A stretch of DNA of 64,000 nucleotides from Trichocoleus sp. FACHB-40 (GTDB lineage: Bacteria > Cyanobacteriota > Cyanobacteriia > Cyanobacteriales > FACHB-T130), in assembly GCF_014695915.1 (NCBI RefSeq), contig NZ_JACJPF010000057.1, positions 1 through 64,000 on the forward strand. The letters run 5' to 3'. A program made the position numbers and the translations under genes. Each line of letters begins with the position of its first letter. The stretch's first letter is position 1. The notes beneath the pieces were generated by a model. The model was not told the DNA's origin. It saw nothing but the letters and a program-made list of their open reading frames with translations, and ran no database searches. This document shows positions 38,480 through 47,715 of this stretch, piece after piece.

Positions 38480-38597
38480 ATTAGTATATTGCTAATGGCT
38501 AATAGCTAATTGCAAAAGAAAAAGTGCATAATTCTTTTTTGCATGAGAGCCTTTTACATGATTGCCTTTTTAACTGAGAAGCGTGGGGGTTTTTGCA

Positions 38598-39176
38598 GTG
38601 GGTCTATTTGACGATTTCAACCGATTTCTGGAAACCCGATTAGAAGAATTTTTGCGAAATAATCCCCATCTAGAGTTACAGGCGCTAGAGGAACAGCTGC
38701 GGGAACAGGAAGAAGATGCCCTACGGCTGATTGCAGACCTGAATCTGCAAGAACAAAAATTACAGGATGAAATTCTCTCAACTGCACAAGAAGTCCAGCG
38801 CTGGCATATTCGGATTGAAAAGGCAAAAGCGGCTAACAGGCTTGATTTAGCCGAGCCTGCTCAAGAGCGAGAGGCCGCTTTGCTACGTCAAGGAAATCAG
38901 CTTTGGGGACAGATGCAAGGGCTGAAACAGCGCAAAGAGCAAGCTAAGCAGCTACAGCGTCAGATCCAGCAGCGCCGACAGGAAGTTCACACTAAAGCAG
39001 TCCAAGCTGAGGCGGCGCGTACTAACGCTCAAGCTCAGCAGCGAGCAACGACTGGCTGGAATCAAAGTTACAAGGGCAATATCAAAAGCGGGCCAGACTT
39101 ATTAGATGATAAATTTAAGCGTTGGGAAACGGACGATGAGCTAGATCAGCTAAAGCGAAATATTGGAAATAGGTAA
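38598..39176 (+). CDS. Conserved cyanobacterial coiled-coil protein (TIGR04376-like)
   Basis: A protein of about 192 residues from GTG 38598, starting (M)GLFDDFNRFLETRLEEFL. The open frame reaches back to a GTG at 38583, but the GLFDDF start is the better one. Nearly the whole protein is a Glu/Gln/Arg-rich coiled coil, followed by a short end with a GW(N/D)xxYKG-type segment and LLDDKFKRWETDDELDQLK. I recall this pattern as cyanobacterial family TIGR04376, of unknown role. It follows the PilP-like gene on the same strand. Confidence 0.7.
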   Translation: MGLFDDFNRFLETRLEEFLRNNPHLELQALEEQLREQEEDALRLIADLNLQEQKLQDEILSTAQEVQRWHIRIEKAKAANRLDLAEPAQEREAALLRQGNQLWGQMQGLKQRKEQAKQLQRQIQQRRQEVHTKAVQAEAARTNAQAQQRATTGWNQSYKGNIKSGPDLLDDKFKRWETDDELDQLKRNIGNR

Positions 39177-39216: not shown

Positions 39217-39972
39217 ATGACTTTTCCGGTTTATTTGTGGCTGGGGTCGGTGAGGATTCATCCTCATATTTTGTTTGAGTCTTTAGCTTATGCGATCGCT
39301 TTCCGTTTATTAATCAAAAATTCTCGCAAAGATTCTATCGCACCCACGCAACGCAGTTCGGTAATTGTCGGTGGCTTGGTAGGGGCGCTAGCTGGTGCGA
39401 AGCTGCTGGTTTTGGTACAGCATATTGATTTACTTTTTTCAAATTGGCAACAATTATTTTTACTTTTACTTCAGGGCAAAACTGTTGTAGGAGCGCTTTT
39501 GGGCGGGCTGATTGGTGTGGAAATAACCAAAAAAATTATCGGTGTAAATCGCTCAACAGGGGATGTTTTCGTTTATCCGTTGATTGTGGGAACAGCGGTA
39601 GGACGCATTGGTTGTTTTTTGACAGGATTAAGCGATCGCACTTACGGCATTGCCACTAATTTACCTTGGGGGATCGATTTTGGCGATCGCATTCTTCGAC
39701 ATCCGACTCAAATTTATGAAATTATATTTTTGTTAATTTTAATTATATTTTTAAAAATCCGCAGCCGCTACCATCGACAAGAAGGCGATTTATTTAAGTT
39801 CTATATGGTGGCATATCTAAGCTTTCGCCTGCTAATTGATTTCCTTAAGCCAGATTTTCATCCCATCTTCGGGCTAAGTGCCATTCAGATTGCTTGTTTA
39901 CTGGGACTGTTATATTATCACCGTAGTATTCCCCAAATGTTTAATTTTAATCGTCCTGCGAATACTTGGTAG
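39217..39972 (+). CDS. Lgt-like membrane protein (diacylglyceryl transferase paralogue)
   Basis: A 251-residue protein with about seven membrane segments that resembles prolipoprotein diacylglyceryl transferase. Lgt moves diacylglycerol from phosphatidylglycerol to a lipoprotein Cys. The signature region reads VGRIGCFLTGL, then TNLPWGIDFGD and RHPTQIYE, matching the Lgt order, with the conserved Arg kept and the usual Asn replaced by Cys. The N-terminal part has IHPHILFESLAY. It is 73 bp before the Tes-like radical SAM gene on the same strand. A lipid headgroup or glycerol transfer in membrane-lipid modification is possible. Whether the genome has another, housekeeping Lgt cannot be seen. Confidence 0.8.
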   Translation: MTFPVYLWLGSVRIHPHILFESLAYAIAFRLLIKNSRKDSIAPTQRSSVIVGGLVGALAGAKLLVLVQHIDLLFSNWQQLFLLLLQGKTVVGALLGGLIGVEITKKIIGVNRSTGDVFVYPLIVGTAVGRIGCFLTGLSDRTYGIATNLPWGIDFGDRILRHPTQIYEIIFLLILIIFLKIRSRYHRQEGDLFKFYMVAYLSFRLLIDFLKPDFHPIFGLSAIQIACLLGLLYYHRSIPQMFNFNRPANTW

Positions 39973-40045
39973 GTTAAACATTTTCTTCCAAGTTCTCTCC
40001 CCATCCACCCTGAGAACCAGAAAAAAACCCTTTAAATTATATAAT

Positions 40046-41464
40046 ATGCCTACTCGAAACTACCTTTTCTATGCCTTAACTAACAGCGTTTGCTCTAAAT
40101 GTCTTATCAAAGTCGAAGCGAAGATTCTCTTTCGAGACGATTGCGTTTACTTGGTTAAACATTGTCCAACTCACGGACATCAAGAAGTTTTAATTGCCGA
40201 TGATATTGAATATTACAAACAATCCCTGGAATTTATCAAGCCTGGGGATATGCCGCTCAAATTTAATACCCCAATAAAATATGGCTGTCCTTATGACTGC
40301 GGACTTTGCCCAGATCACGAACAGCATAGTTGTTTGACTTTAGTAGAAGTGACGGACAGATGCAATCTTTCCTGTCCAATTTGTTATGCCGATTCAGGTA
40401 CAGAAGAGGTTTTTCAAAATTCTAATCAATATCGTCGCCACCGCAGTTTAGAGCAAATTGAAATGATGTTAGATGCGGTAGTGGCGAATGAGGGAGAACC
40501 TCAAATTGTCCAAATTAGCGGAGGTGAACCAACGATTCATCCAGAGTTTTTTAAAATTCTGGATATTGCCAAAAGCAAGCCAATTCGACACTTAATGATT
40601 AATACCAATGGTGTCAGAATTGCTAAAGACCGAAATTTTTGCGATCGCTTAAGCCAATATATGCCTGGAATTGAAGTTTATCTGCAATTTGATAGCTTTG
40701 AGGCGGCGGCGTTGGAGGAGTTGCGCGGGGCAGATTTGCGAGAAGTTCGCCAGAATGCGATCGCTCACCTCAATGAGTTTAACATCTCAACAACGCTGGT
40801 CGTTACCCTGAAAAAGGGGCTAAATGACGGCGAAATCGGCAAAATTATTGAATACGCCTTGCAGCAGAAATGCGTCCGGGGTGTCACCTTTCAACCAATC
40901 CAAGCAGCAGGACGTTTGGAAGGATTTGAGCATGAACGCGATCGCTACACTCTTACAGAAGTCCGCCGCTCAATTTTACAGCAGAGTCCCTATTTCAAAC
41001 CAGAAGATATTCTCCCAGTGCCTTGTCATCCAGACTGTTTAGCAATGGCTTATGCGCTAAAAATTAAGGGCAAAGTGATACCCTTAACTGGGCTTTTTGA
41101 GCCAAATACCTTTGTGAAAATGATGCCCAATTCTGTCCTTTACGAGCAGAATGATGAACTAAAGCGTAATATTTTTAATTTATTTTCCACTAGCCATTCA
41201 CCCGCATCTTCGGCAACATCTTTAAAACAATTGCTGTGTTGTTTACCGATGTTACCTGTTCCAGATGGTATTACTTACGAAAATATATTTCGGGTAATGA
41301 TTGTACAATTTCTCGACTCCTTTAACTTCGATGTCCGTTCTGTGAAGCGCTCCTGCATTCACATTGTGCATCCTGATGGTAGGATTATTCCATTTGATAC
41401 TTTTAATATGTTTTACCGCGAGGGTAGCGCTGGGCATCACTTAGTTAATAACCGTTTAGCCTGA
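40046..41464 (+). CDS. Radical SAM protein of the Tes / MJ0619 type
   Basis: A 472-residue radical SAM protein like archaeal tetraether synthase Tes (MJ0619 group). The start ATG 40046 gives MPTRNYLFYALTNSVCSKC, a rubredoxin-like end with CSKC and CPTHG. Next comes GCPYDCGLCPDHEQHSC, then the radical SAM motif TDRCNLSCPICYADSG (C-x3-C-x2-C), QISGGEPTIHPEF, and further Cys in PVPCHPDC and RSCIHIVHPDGRIIPFD. These additional Cys sets fit the auxiliary clusters of Tes. Tes joins lipid tails by C-C bonds between unactivated carbons. In a cyanobacterium the substrate is unknown. The open frame reaches back into the Lgt-like gene, but homology begins at 40046. Confidence 0.88.
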   Translation: MPTRNYLFYALTNSVCSKCLIKVEAKILFRDDCVYLVKHCPTHGHQEVLIADDIEYYKQSLEFIKPGDMPLKFNTPIKYGCPYDCGLCPDHEQHSCLTLVEVTDRCNLSCPICYADSGTEEVFQNSNQYRRHRSLEQIEMMLDAVVANEGEPQIVQISGGEPTIHPEFFKILDIAKSKPIRHLMINTNGVRIAKDRNFCDRLSQYMPGIEVYLQFDSFEAAALEELRGADLREVRQNAIAHLNEFNISTTLVVTLKKGLNDGEIGKIIEYALQQKCVRGVTFQPIQAAGRLEGFEHERDRYTLTEVRRSILQQSPYFKPEDILPVPCHPDCLAMAYALKIKGKVIPLTGLFEPNTFVKMMPNSVLYEQNDELKRNIFNLFSTSHSPASSATSLKQLLCCLPMLPVPDGITYENIFRVMIVQFLDSFNFDVRSVKRSCIHIVHPDGRIIPFDTFNMFYREGSAGHHLVNNRLA

Positions 41465-41539
41465 TATCAACTATCTAACTCTAGAAGCGATTATTAATAT
41501 TTTTGATACAGAAACAAACACTATTTTAAATAAAAGCAA

Positions 41540-41854
41540 ATGCGAGCAAGAAATGAAGGTTTACAGATAGTTTTAGGTTTCTTACTACTATTGGTAATAC
41601 ATATTGCAGTAATTGCTATATTGGCATTAATTACATACAAAACGAGAAAATCTGGTGGATCAAGTATTATTGAACCAATTTGGTTGATTTCAGTTTTTTA
41701 CATTGGCTTATTCCAAACTTTGTATGTAATTCCACTTGTTATTTGGCTGCAATTGCAAGGACGGTGGGGATTGATGAAAGGGGTGATTATCGGTGCAGTT
41801 ATCACCGCTTTGTTGAATGGTGGCTGCTTTTTATGGGTGTTCTCAGGATGGTAG
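41540..41854 (+). CDS. Small three-span membrane protein
   Basis: A 104-residue hydrophobic protein I do not recognise. Membrane segments are near 10-35 (IVLGFLLLLVIHIAVIAILALI), 45-68 (IWLISVFYIGLFQTLYVIPL) and 78-102 (GVIIGAVITALLNGGCFLWV). It follows the Tes-like gene by 75 bp on the same strand, so it may be the third gene of the Lgt/Tes group. Its 3' end is repeated, diverged, just downstream at 41885-41940. No conserved polar motif stands out. Confidence 0.6.
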   Translation: MRARNEGLQIVLGFLLLLVIHIAVIAILALITYKTRKSGGSSIIEPIWLISVFYIGLFQTLYVIPLVIWLQLQGRWGLMKGVIIGAVITALLNGGCFLWVFSGW

Positions 41855-42464: not shown

Positions 42465-43316
42465 TTAATTAGCCTGCGATCGCAAAGCATCTCTTTCAGA
42501 AACTTGCTTTCTCCGTTTTGACCTAATTCCCATCATACTTAGCAACCCGACGCAACTTAAAGCTAGAGTGCCTGATGGTTCAGGAGTTTTAACTTCGGCA
42601 TAATTTAGCTGGTTTCCTATTAACTTTAAACGGGTTTTGTTAGCGAAATTACGCGAATAGTTACCCACAACAGAACCACTAAGAAGTTTTTCTCCTTCTA
42701 AACTATTATCCAGAACCTTATCCTCTAAATCAAAGCTGACGTATTGGCTTTTTTGGATACTAAAAAACTCATCCGATAAATTTCTTAGACCAGCCAAGAT
42801 GCTAAAAGAATCTAAGAGTACAGGCTGCTTACGGTTCGTGATATCGAACAAGGAAAAAGATAGTTTTCCATCAGCCCGTGCAACCTCGCTGGGAGAATTA
42901 TCAGTTGAAGTTAATAAAATCAAAGAGGCGATAAAATCAAAAGAGAAAGATTGATTCTTTCTTATCAAAAATTCCTCAACAATTCCCGCCTGACTTTTGG
43001 CATTACCTCTGTAGATTCTACCTGTTCCAGAAGATTCGCTTACAGATGTATTAAACGAAAAAAGTGGCTCGTCTGAAAAAATTGCTTCAGCATCAGCAAA
43101 AGCATCCACTGAACCATGTTTTGCATTTGTCAGAGTATCAGTATCAGTGCAAGTCTTAGCAATGTCAGGATTTTGGCTGTAGTTATTAATGACTAACGTC
43201 CCCCTGGAAAAGGCAAGAGTAGCAGCTAAACTAGGCGAGACGGCGACGCTTAAGCCAGTTACTAAAGGTGTAAAGAACAGCAAGAATTGTTTGACAATGC
43301 TGCGGTTTAATAGCAT
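42465..43316 (-). CDS. PEP-CTERM sorting-signal protein
   Basis: A 283-residue exported protein. It has a signal peptide (about 1-31, ending SLA-AT) and a C-terminal PEP-CTERM tail: VKTPEPSGTLALSCVG, a hydrophobic segment, and the basic cluster RSKRRK. Such tails are cut by exosortase so that the protein reaches the cell surface or extracellular matrix. The body is Ser/Asn-rich with no cysteine pair pattern and no recognised domain (GTGRIYRGNAKSQAGIVEEF is a repeated type among cyanobacterial PEP-CTERM proteins). No exosortase gene is in the window. It diverges from the metalloprotease gene. Confidence 0.85.
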   Translation of the reverse strand: MLLNRSIVKQFLLFFTPLVTGLSVAVSPSLAATLAFSRGTLVINNYSQNPDIAKTCTDTDTLTNAKHGSVDAFADAEAIFSDEPLFSFNTSVSESSGTGRIYRGNAKSQAGIVEEFLIRKNQSFSFDFIASLILLTSTDNSPSEVARADGKLSFSLFDITNRKQPVLLDSFSILAGLRNLSDEFFSIQKSQYVSFDLEDKVLDNSLEGEKLLSGSVVGNYSRNFANKTRLKLIGNQLNYAEVKTPEPSGTLALSCVGLLSMMGIRSKRRKQVSERDALRSQAN

Positions 43317-43642: not shown

Positions 43643-46540
43643 ATGACCGAGAAGATGAGAAGATTGCCAGTATTTATATTTGCTCTACAAGGATTATTGT
43701 TTGCTGAGCCACAGCTAGCCGCGCAGCCGTTACCTATGGAGGTTTCGTTAGGCGATCGCGTCCCCAAGACTCAGCCTTCTGACTTGATTCCCAATTCCTA
43801 CGTATGGGTAATCAAGGATAGGCAACAACAGCCAGAACAGCAACCCTACTTATGGATAGTTAAAGATACCAACAAGCAGTTGCGACTTCTTAAAGATATC
43901 AACAAGCCAGAGACTCGTCAGACAGGGTCAAAACCCAAAGACCCCAAAAAGCCAGCTTCATCGGGGTTCGATGAAATCGTAAAAGATACCGAGAAGTTAG
44001 AGGGGATGTTCACCCTTTACCGCAACAAGGAAAAAGGAAAAGTTTATCTAGAAATCAAGCCGGAACAGCTAAATAAAAACTTCCTTGGAACTGTGACGAT
44101 GGAATCCGGTATTGGTGAACGAGGGATTTACAGCGGACTACCGCTGAATGATTTTTTATTCTACTTTCGTCACGTAAACAATAATTTACAGTTTGTTATT
44201 CGCAATGTGAATTTTCGCACCACTCCCGGCGATCCGCAAGAGCGATCGCTAGATCGAGCATTTAGCGATTCCGTCCTCTACTCCCTAGACATCAAAAGCA
44301 CCCACCCGCAACGCAAAACTCTACTCATCGATCTGAGTGACTTACTACTTGCAGATTTGCCTGGGTTAACCCCAATTTTAAAGGAATTTTTGGGCAGTCC
44401 CTACCGACTCGACAGCAGCAAGTCGTCTTTTGACACAGTGAAAGCCTTCCCCTTAAATATAGAAGTTTCTTCAATTTACGGCTTCTCGTCTGCGAATAGC
44501 CAGGATCTACCGCCCAATTTAGACACCTTAGCTGATAGCCGTGCGCTCAGCATCAAAGTACATTACAGTTTGTCTCAGCTACCAGAAAATAACGGCTATA
44601 TTCCCCGTTTAGCTGACGACAGAATTGGCTACTTTATCACAGCTTACAAAGACTTTTCTAACGACAACTTTAGAGAACCCTTTGTTCGTTATATTCATCG
44701 CTGGCATCTGGAAAAGCAAGACCCAAAAGCACCCCTTTCTCCACCCAAGAAACCGATAGTTTTCTGGATTGAGAATACTGTACCGTTGGAATACCGCGAT
44801 GCTGTCCGCGAAGGCATTCTAATGTGGAACAAAGCTTTTGAGAAAGCAGGATTTAAGGATGCGATTGAAGTGCGGCAGATGCCTGATAATGCCACCTGGA
44901 GTCCGGGTGATGTGCGTTACAACACGATTCGCTGGATCAATTCTTTGGATGGATTTTCTGCCAGAGGCCCATCACGGGTTAACCCCCTGACTGGAGAAAT
45001 CTTAGACGCAGATATCATTGTGGATGCTAATATGCTGCGCTCTATTAAGCAAAGATATCGCAATTTAATAGAACCTACGCAGTCGCAGGAAATGGGGTTG
45101 TTGGGACAAGGAAATTTATGTAACCTCACGTCCTCGCCTGTACAGGGAGAGGGAAGTAATTTGGGCAGGCGAGACGCAAGTCGCAATTCCAAATTCTTGC
45201 AACTTCTGCAAGACCAGGATATCTGCTATGGGATGGAATCTACAATGCAGACAGCGATGGGAGCGATCGCATTATCCCTTTTTCACAATGTCTCGCCCAC
45301 AAGCAACAAGATGAAAGAGTATGTGAATCAATATTTGCGTCACCTCATCGCCCACGAAGTCGGACACACTCTAGGGTTGCGGCACAACTTCCACGGCAGC
45401 ACTTTAAATGGGCCGGAGGAATTAAACAATACAGAAATTACCCGCACTAGAGGAATGGTTAGTTCCGTGATGGACTACGTTCCGGTAAACCTTGCCCCCC
45501 AAGGCACCAAGCAAGGGGACTATTACCCGGCTAATATTGGCCCTTACGATGAATGGGCAATTGAGTATGGTTATAAACCCAGCGGGGCAATCAGTTCTAT
45601 AGCCGAGAGACGGTTTCTAGACCAAATTGCCGGACAATCGTCGAAACCGGAATATGCTTATGCTACCGATGAAGATATCTTGGATCTCGATCCGGGTGCA
45701 AATCTTTGGGATTTAAGCGGCAACGTGCTACTTTACTCGCAGTGGCAGATGGACAACGCCCGTACCATGTGGGAGCGTTTGAATAAGCGTTCTCCGTCCA
45801 GTGGTGACTATACAGAAATGCGGGTGTTGTTCAACACCGTACTTAACTACTATTTCAACAACGCGAATCTGTTAGCGCAATACGTCGGCGGTCAGTCGTT
45901 CAGTCGCGATCGTGCCGGGACTCCTAACGGACGTTTGCCGTTTACACCCGTGCCGTTAGAAAAACAACGTGAAGCATTGACAAATATAGGGAAATATGTA
46001 TTTGCAGCAGACGCTTTCAATTTTTCGCCGCAACTGCTGAATCAGTTAGCGCCGTCGCGCTGGAGACACTGGGGAAATCCGATCCCGATTTTGCGACTGG
46101 ATTATCCAATTCATGAAAACTTGCTGTCGCAGCAAAGTCGAGTGTTGCAAAGTCTTTTAGGTAGCGATCGCCTAAATCGTCTGCGCGATATTGAACTGAA
46201 ATCGAAGCCGGGAGAAGCACTGACGTTACCGGAACTGTTTGAAACTCTGCAAAATAGTATTTGGACAGAGGTACAAGATGGTAAACCGGAGAATATTTCC
46301 AGCCTGCGCCGTTCCTTGCAGCGCGAACATTTGGAGATTTTGCTAGAAATGGTGTTGCGGACTTCTCCTGTGCCAGAAGATGCTCGTACCCTAGCATGGT
46401 ACGAACTGCGACAACTGAGAAAATCGCTAGATGCTTCGCTGAGGAAGCAAGACAAACTCGATACCTATACGAAAGCCCATTTAGCAGAAACACGCGATCG
46501 CATCGACAAAGCCTTAACCGCGCGATTGGAATCGAAGTAA
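43643..46540 (+). CDS. Large exported zinc metalloprotease (DUF5117/DUF4953 type)
   Basis: A 965-residue metzincin-like protease. It has a short signal peptide, either from residue 1 or from Met5 (MRRLPVFIFALQGLLF), ending near AAQ. A DUF5117-like beta-rich region covers about 130-330. The zinc site HEVGHTLGLRHNFHGS lies near residue 571, in a longer catalytic part with the Met-turn-like SSVMDYVP. The C-terminus is helical. At about residues 493-510 the frame contains SSPVQGEGSNLGRR, encoded by a dispersed GGAGAGGG-type repeat and apparently inserted in frame in a loop before the zinc site. Probably periplasmic or extracellular; substrate not known. Confidence 0.88.
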   Translation: MTEKMRRLPVFIFALQGLLFAEPQLAAQPLPMEVSLGDRVPKTQPSDLIPNSYVWVIKDRQQQPEQQPYLWIVKDTNKQLRLLKDINKPETRQTGSKPKDPKKPASSGFDEIVKDTEKLEGMFTLYRNKEKGKVYLEIKPEQLNKNFLGTVTMESGIGERGIYSGLPLNDFLFYFRHVNNNLQFVIRNVNFRTTPGDPQERSLDRAFSDSVLYSLDIKSTHPQRKTLLIDLSDLLLADLPGLTPILKEFLGSPYRLDSSKSSFDTVKAFPLNIEVSSIYGFSSANSQDLPPNLDTLADSRALSIKVHYSLSQLPENNGYIPRLADDRIGYFITAYKDFSNDNFREPFVRYIHRWHLEKQDPKAPLSPPKKPIVFWIENTVPLEYRDAVREGILMWNKAFEKAGFKDAIEVRQMPDNATWSPGDVRYNTIRWINSLDGFSARGPSRVNPLTGEILDADIIVDANMLRSIKQRYRNLIEPTQSQEMGLLGQGNLCNLTSSPVQGEGSNLGRRDASRNSKFLQLLQDQDICYGMESTMQTAMGAIALSLFHNVSPTSNKMKEYVNQYLRHLIAHEVGHTLGLRHNFHGSTLNGPEELNNTEITRTRGMVSSVMDYVPVNLAPQGTKQGDYYPANIGPYDEWAIEYGYKPSGAISSIAERRFLDQIAGQSSKPEYAYATDEDILDLDPGANLWDLSGNVLLYSQWQMDNARTMWERLNKRSPSSGDYTEMRVLFNTVLNYYFNNANLLAQYVGGQSFSRDRAGTPNGRLPFTPVPLEKQREALTNIGKYVFAADAFNFSPQLLNQLAPSRWRHWGNPIPILRLDYPIHENLLSQQSRVLQSLLGSDRLNRLRDIELKSKPGEALTLPELFETLQNSIWTEVQDGKPENISSLRRSLQREHLEILLEMVLRTSPVPEDARTLAWYELRQLRKSLDASLRKQDKLDTYTKAHLAETRDRIDKALTARLESK
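45126..45185 (+). repeat. Dispersed repeat inserted in frame in the protease gene
   Basis: CCTCGCCTGTACAGGGAGAG and following bases resemble the CTCTCCTGCAAGGAGAGGGG units at 53449-53540 and 59258-59295. The reading frame is kept, giving SSPVQGEGS. Confidence 0.5.
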
Positions 46541-46902: not shown

Positions 46903-47715
46903 ATGACCCATCACGTCAATCAGCTTGGCGAAACTATCCCCCAAACGCTTAATGGATATGACCCTAACGTGTTTCCAGCATTTCATGAAACGCTGCAAAC
47001 TCACTTTCCAGGGGCAGTCCCCATGAGCAAGTACATGAGAAAGACTTTCCAAAGCTTGAGTTCCTACGGTTTTTGTGACGAAAACACGATGGGAATGATA
47101 GCAATTTGTCGGGATGAAGTCGCCGAACCCCTATTTATTGAAGTAATTCGATACTGGGGGAAAACTTTTAATTGTTGCAGCTTAGCCGGGTTCGTCATGA
47201 TGGGGAAAACTGGGTTAGCCGCTGCAACTGACCATACCCCTATCGTTGATGGTATCCGTCGTTTTACCTTCTATGCTATGCCCCATATCGCTATTTCTAG
47301 ACATGGCGAGATTGGTAAGGTTTATCGAGATGGCGTTCAAAAAGTTTCCCACGCCTGCGGAGCATTAGAAACAGTTGTCAAAGAATTGGCATCTGGTCAT
47401 CTGAAACTAGAAATGGATATGCAGGATATTGAACAAACAATTATCCGGCAGAAAATTCTTTCATCCCTTACCTATGGCGACAAACCCGATTTGATAGAAG
47501 TTACAAAATTGGCATCTAAAATTATTTCCCACGATGTCGAAACTCTCTTAAATACTCTGGATCAATCCGTCTTTAACTACGCCGTCATGACCGGAATTCA
47601 AATTCATGGCCCTCTAGGTACGCACTGGATTTATCCACAAGATTTTTATGTCGTCGGCTCTGACCTTCCTGGGGGAAAGGAAAATATAGAAGCGTTTCAG
47701 CAGGCGCAAAATTAA
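46903..47715 (+). CDS. LCIB-type beta-carbonic-anhydrase homologue
   Basis: A 270-residue protein resembling the algal LCIB/LCIC family (limiting-CO2-inducible), an offshoot of beta-carbonic anhydrases that interconverts CO2 and bicarbonate. The expected zinc ligands are present: Cys69 in MIAICRDEV, His128 in FYAMPHIAIS, and Cys152 in SHACGALETV. Asp71 next to Arg70 gives the Asp-Arg pair of the beta type. Other shared phrases are GLAGFVMMGKTGLAAA and VDGIRRF. Start ATG 46903 has AGGAG before it. It is not near carboxysome genes. After the stop the same frame stays open for over 70 codons. The family call is from memory and motifs. Confidence 0.7.
   Translation: MTHHVNQLGETIPQTLNGYDPNVFPAFHETLQTHFPGAVPMSKYMRKTFQSLSSYGFCDENTMGMIAICRDEVAEPLFIEVIRYWGKTFNCCSLAGFVMMGKTGLAAATDHTPIVDGIRRFTFYAMPHIAISRHGEIGKVYRDGVQKVSHACGALETVVKELASGHLKLEMDMQDIEQTIIRQKILSSLTYGDKPDLIEVTKLASKIISHDVETLLNTLDQSVFNYAVMTGIQIHGPLGTHWIYPQDFYVVGSDLPGGKENIEAFQQAQN

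Follow-up and report, generated by a model that had tools for sequence, protein, structure and literature searches.

A conserved bacterial gene cassette for an Lgt-like protein, a Tes-like radical SAM protein and a small cysteine-bearing membrane protein, with a possible role in protein lipidation

Tetraether synthase (Tes or GDGT-MAS; MJ0619, structures 7TOL and 7TOM), a radical S-adenosylmethionine (SAM) enzyme, and the prolipoprotein transferase Lgt of Escherichia coli (5AZB) are among the closest described relatives of two proteins encoded side by side in Trichocoleus sp. FACHB-40. We analyzed a stretch of 64,000 nucleotides of this cyanobacterium (contig NZ_JACJPF010000057.1, forward strand), hereafter called the window, to which all coordinates refer. 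In it, the genes for a divergent Lgt-like membrane protein (LgtL), a Tes-like radical SAM protein and a small membrane protein follow each other on the same strand (Table 1). For the C-terminal metal site of Tes, binding of the substrate through a sulfur-carbon intermediate has been proposed, and its residues Met439 and Tyr459 are fully conserved in 1000 archaeal homologues, although variants of both were still active (PMC9433317). In E. coli Lgt, Arg143, Arg239, Tyr235 and Glu202 help line a phosphatidylglycerol pocket. Arg143, Arg239 and His103 are essential, and the lipobox peptide was proposed to bind at the HGGL motif (PMC4728403). A bacterial enzyme joining fatty-acyl tails, Mss, considered here by its description only, has a modelled Tes-like architecture (PMC13274423, PMC11868695).

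The LgtL and radical SAM genes form a conserved module with near-obligate pairing, accompanied by small membrane proteins with a conserved Cys residue. The three genes almost certainly act together, and there is a real chance that they represent a new kind of protein lipidation. Both enzymes belong to known superfamilies. The cassette itself, the small proteins and the Cys motif look undescribed, as no account of an Lgt-like/radical SAM/small-protein cassette was found in the open-licence PMC articles, the only literature searched. A first-pass annotation, made from the sequence alone, had already listed the three open reading frames (ORFs), and their coordinates and lengths were confirmed, as was the 73-bp gap between the LgtL and radical SAM genes; the gap between the latter and the small-protein gene is 75 bp. 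The radical SAM start was set at position 40046, the mechanically assigned ORF start at 39878 being judged too early.

Comparison of the two enzymes with Tes and Lgt

The radical SAM protein exceeded the Pfam cut-offs for Radical_SAM (81.5 bits) and Zn_ribbon_HMPTM (PF23545, 60.3 bits). Its best sequence match in the PDB was Tes 7TOL (E 1.6e-61), and a Foldseek search with the predicted structure (mean predicted local distance difference test score, pLDDT, 82.6; residues 351-407 below 50) returned 7TOL and 7TOM as the top two matches (E 2.6e-38, template-modelling score, TM, ~0.8), followed by the radical SAM peptide maturases SkfB and SuiB at E 2.0e-10. Structure prediction had been named in the first-pass annotation as a possible refutation, and it placed Tes at the top. 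The profile searches proposed there had a divided outcome: LgtL scored above the Pfam LGT cut-off, whereas the radical SAM protein missed that of the NCBIfam Tes model (NF045702, 279.1 bits, cut-off 450). Its best NCBIfam score, over nearly the full length, was obtained with the model of the radical SAM (seleno)protein TrsS (NF045646, 317 bits), which is again under the cut-off of 490, and for none of the three window proteins did any NCBIfam model naming it exceed its cut-off. In a tree of 60 proteins, 40 family members formed a single clade (support 100/100) apart from Tes and TrsS, with a program warning of long outgroup branches, and within this clade the phyla mostly clustered. An assignment as true Tes or TrsS was therefore rejected, since both curated cut-offs were missed and the clade is separate. 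The protein of locus L137, which is over the TrsS cut-off (670 bits), falls into another clade and has no Lgt-like gene within 1.5 kb on either side.

All five motifs pointed out in the first-pass annotation (GRIGCF in LgtL; CPYDCGLC, CNLSCPIC, PVPCHPDC and RSCIH in the radical SAM protein) are present. Its statement that the Cys sets of Tes are kept holds for three of the four metal sites, as assigned for Tes in PMC9433317: the rubredoxin-like site (C16/C19/C40/H43), the N-terminal auxiliary site (C81/C85/C88/H91) and the radical SAM site (C106/C110/C113) align with Tes and are invariant in 40 members. It does not hold for the C-terminal site, which is altered relative to Tes at Met439 (V420), Tyr459 (I440, invariant in 40 members), RCCIH (RSCIH) and PFC (PFD). 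Relative to Tes, the family has gained C327 (Ser in 7TOL), C398 and C399, all three invariant in the 40 members, while C331, which aligns with a Tes Cys, is not invariant. These changes may amount to a swap of ligands at the C-terminal cluster, the exact form of which we infer from the alignment. As the Tes variants in Met439 and Tyr459 were active (PMC9433317), loss of both residues alone does not exclude Tes-like chemistry. In summary, the radical SAM protein shares with Tes the fold and the residues of three sites, but differs from it in being bacterial, in forming its own clade, in the altered C-terminal site and in its partnership with LgtL and a small Cys protein. Only a single gene of the Tes-like family is present in the Trichocoleus genome.

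LgtL matched Pfam LGT (PF01790) with 96.9 bits (cut-off 24.9), but stayed below the lgt equivalog cut-offs of TIGR00544 (54.6 vs 118.9 bits) and NF000778 (77.6 vs 334 bits). E. coli Lgt 5AZB was its best PDB sequence match (E 2.3e-6) and the sole PDB match of its predicted structure (mean pLDDT 89.9) at E ≤ 0.001 (E 3.9e-7, TM ~0.5). The Trichocoleus genome encodes two Lgt-family proteins, a canonical Lgt elsewhere (277 bits) and LgtL (96.5 bits), and at least one further Lgt-family gene besides LgtL, i.e., at least two in total, was present in all 18 genomes searched for the Pfam family. In an alignment of 50 LgtL proteins, which were also aligned to E. coli Lgt, the donor-pocket residues R130, R204, Y200 and E168, equivalent to Arg143, Arg239, Tyr235 and Glu202, were kept in 50/50. 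The Glu243 position holds Asp (30) or Glu (20) and the Arg246 position Lys (48) or Arg (2). In contrast to E. coli Lgt, the His103 position of the HGGL motif is occupied by Val (42), Met (4), Leu (2) or Ala (2) and by His in none, and the Asn146 signature position is Cys (C133) in all 50 proteins. The signature thus reads GRxGCFLTGLxDxTYG-like instead of GRxGNFxNGE, and E102, K105, D116 and D157 are likewise invariant (50/50). The description of LgtL as Lgt-like with a changed active site was borne out by these data. With the donor residues kept and the acceptor site changed, the simplest reading of the alignment is that LgtL would use the same donor as Lgt and a different acceptor.

Distribution of the radical SAM family and its pairing with LgtL

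A genome scan with an alignment of seven sequences as query yielded 80 loci, which are the best 80 among at least 558 relative-encoding stretches of 585 listed and not a random sample. They showed 57-88% identity and came from Cyanobacteria, Melainabacteria, Bacillota (mostly Paenibacillaceae), Bacteroidota, Acidobacteriota, Planctomycetota, Verrucomicrobiota, Spirochaetota, Myxococcota and Pseudomonadota, so that the cyanobacterial framing of the cluster in the first-pass annotation proved too narrow. Subsamples of four phyla were searched in addition, the query's own genome being counted in each. The radical SAM family was present in 10 of 386 cyanobacterial genomes (an 11th holds only relatives of 30-32% identity), 22 of 296 Bacteroidota (identity at least 61%), 2 of 299 Bacillota and at least 12 of 199 Acidobacteriota genomes, of which a 13th, G1161, shows an 80-residue piece. 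Scores with a family hidden Markov model were bimodal, with 123 family loci at 623 bits or more and no more than 464 bits for the 50 remaining radical SAM loci, most of which are Tes- or TrsS-like. The family counts are given without the duplicates L003, L108, L134 and L161; of the split gene of G185, one half (L014) is in no count and the second (L009) is counted among the family loci. L168 and L169, from two genomes with the same match score, were both kept, and one of the 50 non-family loci, L016, encodes a remote radical SAM protein (56 bits).

Conservation of the neighbourhood in other genomes had been set beforehand as a test of the cluster. Of the 118 family loci with at least 800 bp of upstream sequence, 109 contain a co-directional LgtL gene no more than 1.3 kb upstream of the radical SAM gene; in 91 of them the distance is within 100 bp and in 44 the two genes overlap (starts approximate). 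LgtL was the upstream neighbour in only one of 47 other radical SAM loci. The 109 paired loci represent nine phylum-level groups, the Myxococcota locus lying outside the testable set. In the 386 cyanobacterial genomes, LgtL (E ≤ 1e-40) occurred in nine, all of them among the ten with the radical SAM family, and nowhere alone (Fisher 2e-17, kinship ignored). Of the nine loci without an LgtL neighbour, two, L018 and L044, carry the gene at a greater distance (3.2 kb upstream or 2-5 kb downstream). The seven remaining unpaired genomes comprise four with a full LgtL elsewhere (293-323 bits; ~2.6 kb off in G1045), one with a fragment at a contig end (189 bits), one with solely other Lgt-like genes (185 and 196 bits), among them L222 with a GCCFG motif, and G004, the tenth cyanobacterial radical SAM genome, which has none. 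In a search with the radical SAM protein alone, the complete arrangement was also found on plasmid pPP1 of Persicobacter psychrovividus, where LgtL (GRIGCF), the radical SAM gene and a gene for a 59-residue protein with the C-terminal end IGTGICGSLLS all overlap.

Distant matches on mycobacterial, actinobacterial and haloarchaeal plasmids (28-38% identity) were rejected as family members; the one neighbourhood looked at, L217 on a plasmid of Mycolicibacterium vanbaalenii JOB5, has a 38%-identical radical SAM protein amid a methyltransferase, CcdA and a disulfide oxidoreductase and is another Tes/TrsS-like neighbourhood. Sister radical SAM proteins in the tree (L130, L131, L136), as well as L174, have a different Lgt-like gene downstream, which carries GRIGCL in L136 and L174 and is truncated at the locus end in L130 and L131; this might be a second pathway of Lgt plus Tes-like type. 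In L131, genes for an ICMT/PEMT-like methyltransferase and a DUF4395-like protein, both named by eye, lie between the two. A selenocysteine codon was considered in L130, L136 and L174, for which an internal TGA had been reported. The idea was dropped because the TGA of L136 ends the listed ORF and the reading frames of L130 and L136, trimmed right before the TGA, contain no stop, so that these were taken as ordinary terminal stops.

The small membrane protein and its Cys residue

The first-pass annotation had treated the small membrane protein as a bystander, whereas we consider its conserved Cys the best clue to a role as substrate. Its gene is the next one downstream of the radical SAM gene in Cyanobacteria, in Bacilli and in the majority of Bacteroidota loci. 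Many Acidobacteriota, and the Bacteroidota loci L123-L126, have it between the two enzyme genes, and in some Paenibacillaceae it directly precedes LgtL. The proteins split into separate BLAST families, with 55-67 residues in Flavobacteriia, about 88 in Chitinophaga, 104 in the window and up to 144 in Paenibacillus. The window protein had no Pfam match over the cut-off, and neither it nor any of ten small proteins tested has a family of its own in Pfam. The sole over-cut-off match among these ten was PF00643, a B-box-like zinc finger, in one type (25.3 vs 24.1 bits). In the Trichocoleus genome the small protein was found at the cassette locus only, and a plasmid search gave no match to it. In the Paenibacillaceae loci L043, L047, L048, L053, L054, L056, L059 and L135, a small Cys protein with a Cys-rich, B-box-like N-terminus is encoded upstream of LgtL; within this group PF00643 was scored on L047 alone. 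In L044:10214-11755 (Planctomycetales), three tandem genes for zinc-ribbon-like membrane proteins precede LgtL, and LgtL stands downstream of the radical SAM gene.

The feature common to the small-protein types is a helix that ends in Cys and is preceded by Lys or Arg. A small membrane ORF with such a lipobox-like end-of-helix Cys was detected in 103 of the 123 family loci, 17 of which contain two or three by our filter. In the resulting 122 proteins, some of which are probably not genes (e.g., 'up' of L006, 'up' of L065 and the 48-residue ORF of L119), position -2 is Gly, Ala, Ser or Thr in 107 and position +1 Gly or Phe in 76; a median of 17 uncharged residues (range 9-50) precedes the Cys and a median of 9 residues (range 1-77) follows it. 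Lys and Arg outnumber Asp and Glu ahead of the helix by 330 to 50, which predicts a cytosolic helix start and an outward-facing Cys, as in a lipobox. Like a prolipoprotein lipobox, the motif thus combines positive residues, a hydrophobic helix, mostly small residues and a Cys at the predicted outer end, but unlike it, the Cys is usually on the last helix near the C-terminus and not in an N-terminal signal. The window protein has no N-terminal signal-peptide lipobox, its Cys being residue 96 of 104, and N-terminal placement is the exception, seen in Acidobacteriota and in L010-L012. In the 80 scan loci, a strict Cys rule was met by 79 of 104 nearby and 22 of 368 distant small membrane ORFs (Fisher 8e-47), some of the latter resembling ordinary lipoproteins. 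In a recount made without any Cys rule, 83 of the 123 loci have a first downstream small membrane ORF, and 81 of these ORFs carry the end-of-helix Cys, the exceptions being L020, with a Cys but Asp nearby, and L053, with an ORF of another kind. Within four BLAST-defined small families, 47 of 49 members have the end Cys, the exceptions being L020 and L019, which is cut by a contig end.

A comparison of genomes with and without the enzymes points in the same direction. Ten of ten genomes with the cassette have a window-type small protein at it, and G129 has one extra remote copy. In the 386 cyanobacterial genomes, window-type proteins occur in eight: the six with both enzymes keep the Cys and the two with neither enzyme (radical SAM profile at most 27 bits) have lost it. 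In one of the latter, G360 (99% complete), the protein reads '...LLNLGAWFLMQA' where the Cys-keeping form reads '...LLNGGCFLWVF', and a separate Cys is present in the first span; the other, G038 (73% complete), has two tandem copies, both without the Cys. Remote copies in enzyme-bearing genomes keep it ('VANCF' in L211; 'NGGCW' in L215, in a broken frame). Such a loss in enzyme-less genomes is predicted of a substrate site, and the Cys probably is the modified residue.

Proposed function and surroundings of the cassette

As the best overall explanation, which we hold at about an even chance of being right, we propose that the cassette lipidates the small membrane protein. The small protein would be the substrate, with its last helix running from the cytosol to the outside and the lipobox-like Cys at the outer face. 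LgtL, whose active site would face outward if arranged as in E. coli Lgt, might move a glycerolipid, most likely diacylglyceryl from phosphatidylglycerol, onto the Cys thiol; we consider this attachment about as likely as not. The radical SAM protein would reach the lipid tail ends from the cytosolic side, as Tes does, and couple or otherwise change the tails, either before the transfer on the free lipid or afterwards on the anchored one, with abstraction of a hydrogen from a tail end and formation of a C-C or C-S bond as the likeliest chemistry. We put forward this radical step on lipid tails rather tentatively. The product would be a small protein with an unusual, possibly cross-linked or membrane-spanning lipid anchor. 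In its most specific form, the proposal describes a type of protein lipidation spread over nine or ten bacterial phylum-level groups, in which an Lgt offshoot attaches lipid to a Cys closing the last helix and tail coupling by a Tes-like radical enzyme yields a joined, possibly membrane-spanning anchor; in this full form it is a doubtful conjecture.

On the joint function, the first-pass annotation was right in seeing one conserved cluster of lipid-type enzymes. Of its two guesses, processing of the lipid part of lipoproteins came nearer, and synthesis of a free membrane lipid appears less likely because the Cys marks the small protein as the likely substrate. Still, the latter is the alternative that fares best, although we regard it as unlikely: the enzymes would make an unusual free lipid, e.g., tail-coupled or sulfur-bearing derivatives of phosphatidylglycerol, and the small protein would be an accessory (carrier, anchor or sensor) with a redox-active or intermediate-binding Cys. 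In its favour, Tes as well as Lgt acts on phospholipids; in vitro, Tes was found to bind phospholipids from E. coli and to yield a lipid containing sulfur (PMC9433317). Bacterial membrane-spanning lipids with phosphatidylglycerol head groups are also known (PMC13274423). However, the accessory would then have been swapped between separate BLAST families across phyla, and yet its Cys was kept in the same setting. The position of this Cys also varies between the end of the last and of the first helix, and its loss in the two enzyme-less genomes is what would be expected of a substrate site.

Clearly less probable is a direct modification of the small protein by the radical SAM enzyme, through a thioether or another radical cross-link at the Cys, as in peptide maturases, with LgtL adding a lipid or only presenting the substrate. 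SkfB and SuiB are indeed the next fold matches after Tes, and the substrates are small, variable and sometimes tandem like peptide precursors, but the Tes match is far stronger (E 2.6e-38 vs 2.0e-10) and the Cys sits at the end of a hydrophobic helix, predicted outside. That LgtL is a spare transferase for ordinary prolipoproteins, and the radical SAM protein part of an unrelated pathway, is very improbable. LgtL belongs to the LGT family and the small ORFs of L010-L012 (FASEAC, FATQAC) are like ordinary lipoprotein signals, but each of the 18 genomes tested has another Lgt-family gene, all 50 aligned LgtL proteins differ from Lgt at the His103 and Asn146 positions, and LgtL and the radical SAM gene almost always occur together. 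Mere chance or hitch-hiking as the cause of the neighbourhood, suggested by the patchy occurrence in 10 of 386 cyanobacterial genomes, is hardly credible given the same gene order in nine phylum-level groups, radical SAM sequences mostly clustering by phylum and 44 overlapping pairs.

Several points weigh against a lipidation of the small protein by the cassette. Radical SAM enzymes act in the cytosol, whereas the Cys is predicted outside. In the cyanobacterial genome G004, LgtL is missing (best Lgt-like score 79 bits) although the radical SAM gene and a small Cys protein are there. The Cys-loss comparison consists of two against six genomes, one of the two only 73% complete. The motif rule was drawn up after the sequences had been seen, which was the reason for the recount. 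The hydropathy part of the rule alone is unspecific, being passed by 106 of 121 sequences with Cys and by 100 of 121 with Leu in its place, and the subfamily alignments in which the Cys is invariant used proteins picked beforehand for their Cys and are hence not independent. By the filter, 20 of the 123 loci have no small Cys protein; nine of them (L010-L012, L019, L044, L055, L057, L122, L164) turned out to have one when examined more broadly or are truncated by a contig end, and in the other 11 (L008, L018, L079, L085, L114, L165, L167-L171) none was found in the available stretch. Some second tandem copies are without the Cys (L065, L110), and the N-terminal, signal-like small ORFs of L010-L012 could be served by the canonical Lgt. 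Finally, LgtL is without the His103 that is essential in E. coli Lgt (PMC4728403), so that the same reaction may not occur.

If lipidation of the small protein by the cassette is true, radical chemistry enters protein lipidation, Lgt-type lipid attachment extends beyond N-terminal signal peptides, and proteins annotated merely by superfamily gain a testable joint role. A further consequence concerns lipid biomarkers, as bacterial 'Tes homologues' were read as candidate makers of branched glycerol dialkyl glycerol tetraether (brGDGT) climate lipids (PMC8941075, PMC10087280, PMC11868695). With 7TOL standing in for the query used in those articles and the database size set to 1.7e10 residues, all 40 family members tested matched Tes below E 1e-50. 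Given these matches and the presence of the family in Acidobacteriota, brGDGT candidate lists may include cassette enzymes, and we infer as a last step that these would make no tetraethers.

Table 1. Features of the cassette in the Trichocoleus window
Feature	Position	Strand	Basis
LgtL, divergent second Lgt-family membrane protein, 251 aa	39217..39972	+	PF01790, model match to 5AZB
LgtL signature GRIGCF (R130 = E. coli R143, kept; C133 = N146, changed)	39601..39618	+	both 50/50 in LgtL alignment
Tes-like radical SAM protein, 472 aa	40046..41464	+	Pfam, NCBIfam, PDB sequence and fold matches, bimodal family model scores
Rubredoxin-like/zinc-ribbon N-terminal domain (C16, C19, C40, H43)	40067..40198	+	PF23545, 60.3 bits; residues invariant in 40 members
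N-terminal auxiliary cluster motif CPYDCGLC (with H91)	40286..40309	+	alignment with Tes
Radical SAM cluster motif CNLSCPIC (CX3CX2C)	40361..40384	+	alignment with Tes
PVPCHPDC: C327 and C331	41024..41038	+	alignment with Tes 7TOL and 40 members
C398-C399 pair	41237..41242	+	invariant in 40 members; no counterpart in Tes 7TOL
C437 in RSCIH	41354..41356	+	aligned with second Cys of Tes RCCIH
Small membrane protein of 104 aa, proposed as the substrate, with three hydrophobic spans seen by eye	41540..41854	+	locus reading
Cys96 codon, proposed modification site, context K-GVIIGAVITALLNGG-C-F	41825..41827	+	Cys 16/16 in a small-protein alignment

The gene upstream of LgtL (38583-39176, TIGR04376 family) was rejected as a member of the cassette, as it had no match in the searched loci of other genomes, whose flanks were partly 1.5 kb. 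On the downstream side, positions 42465-43316 of the minus strand encode a 283-residue protein with the end TPEPSGTLALSCVGLLSMMGIRSKRRKQ..., by eye a PEP-CTERM-like sorting tail. A 965-residue, zinc peptidase-like Met-zincin (DUF4953, DUF5117, DUF5118) is encoded 1.8 kb downstream of the cassette (43643-46540), and positions 46903-47715 encode a protein resembling LCIB-type beta carbonic anhydrases (PF18599, 220 bits).

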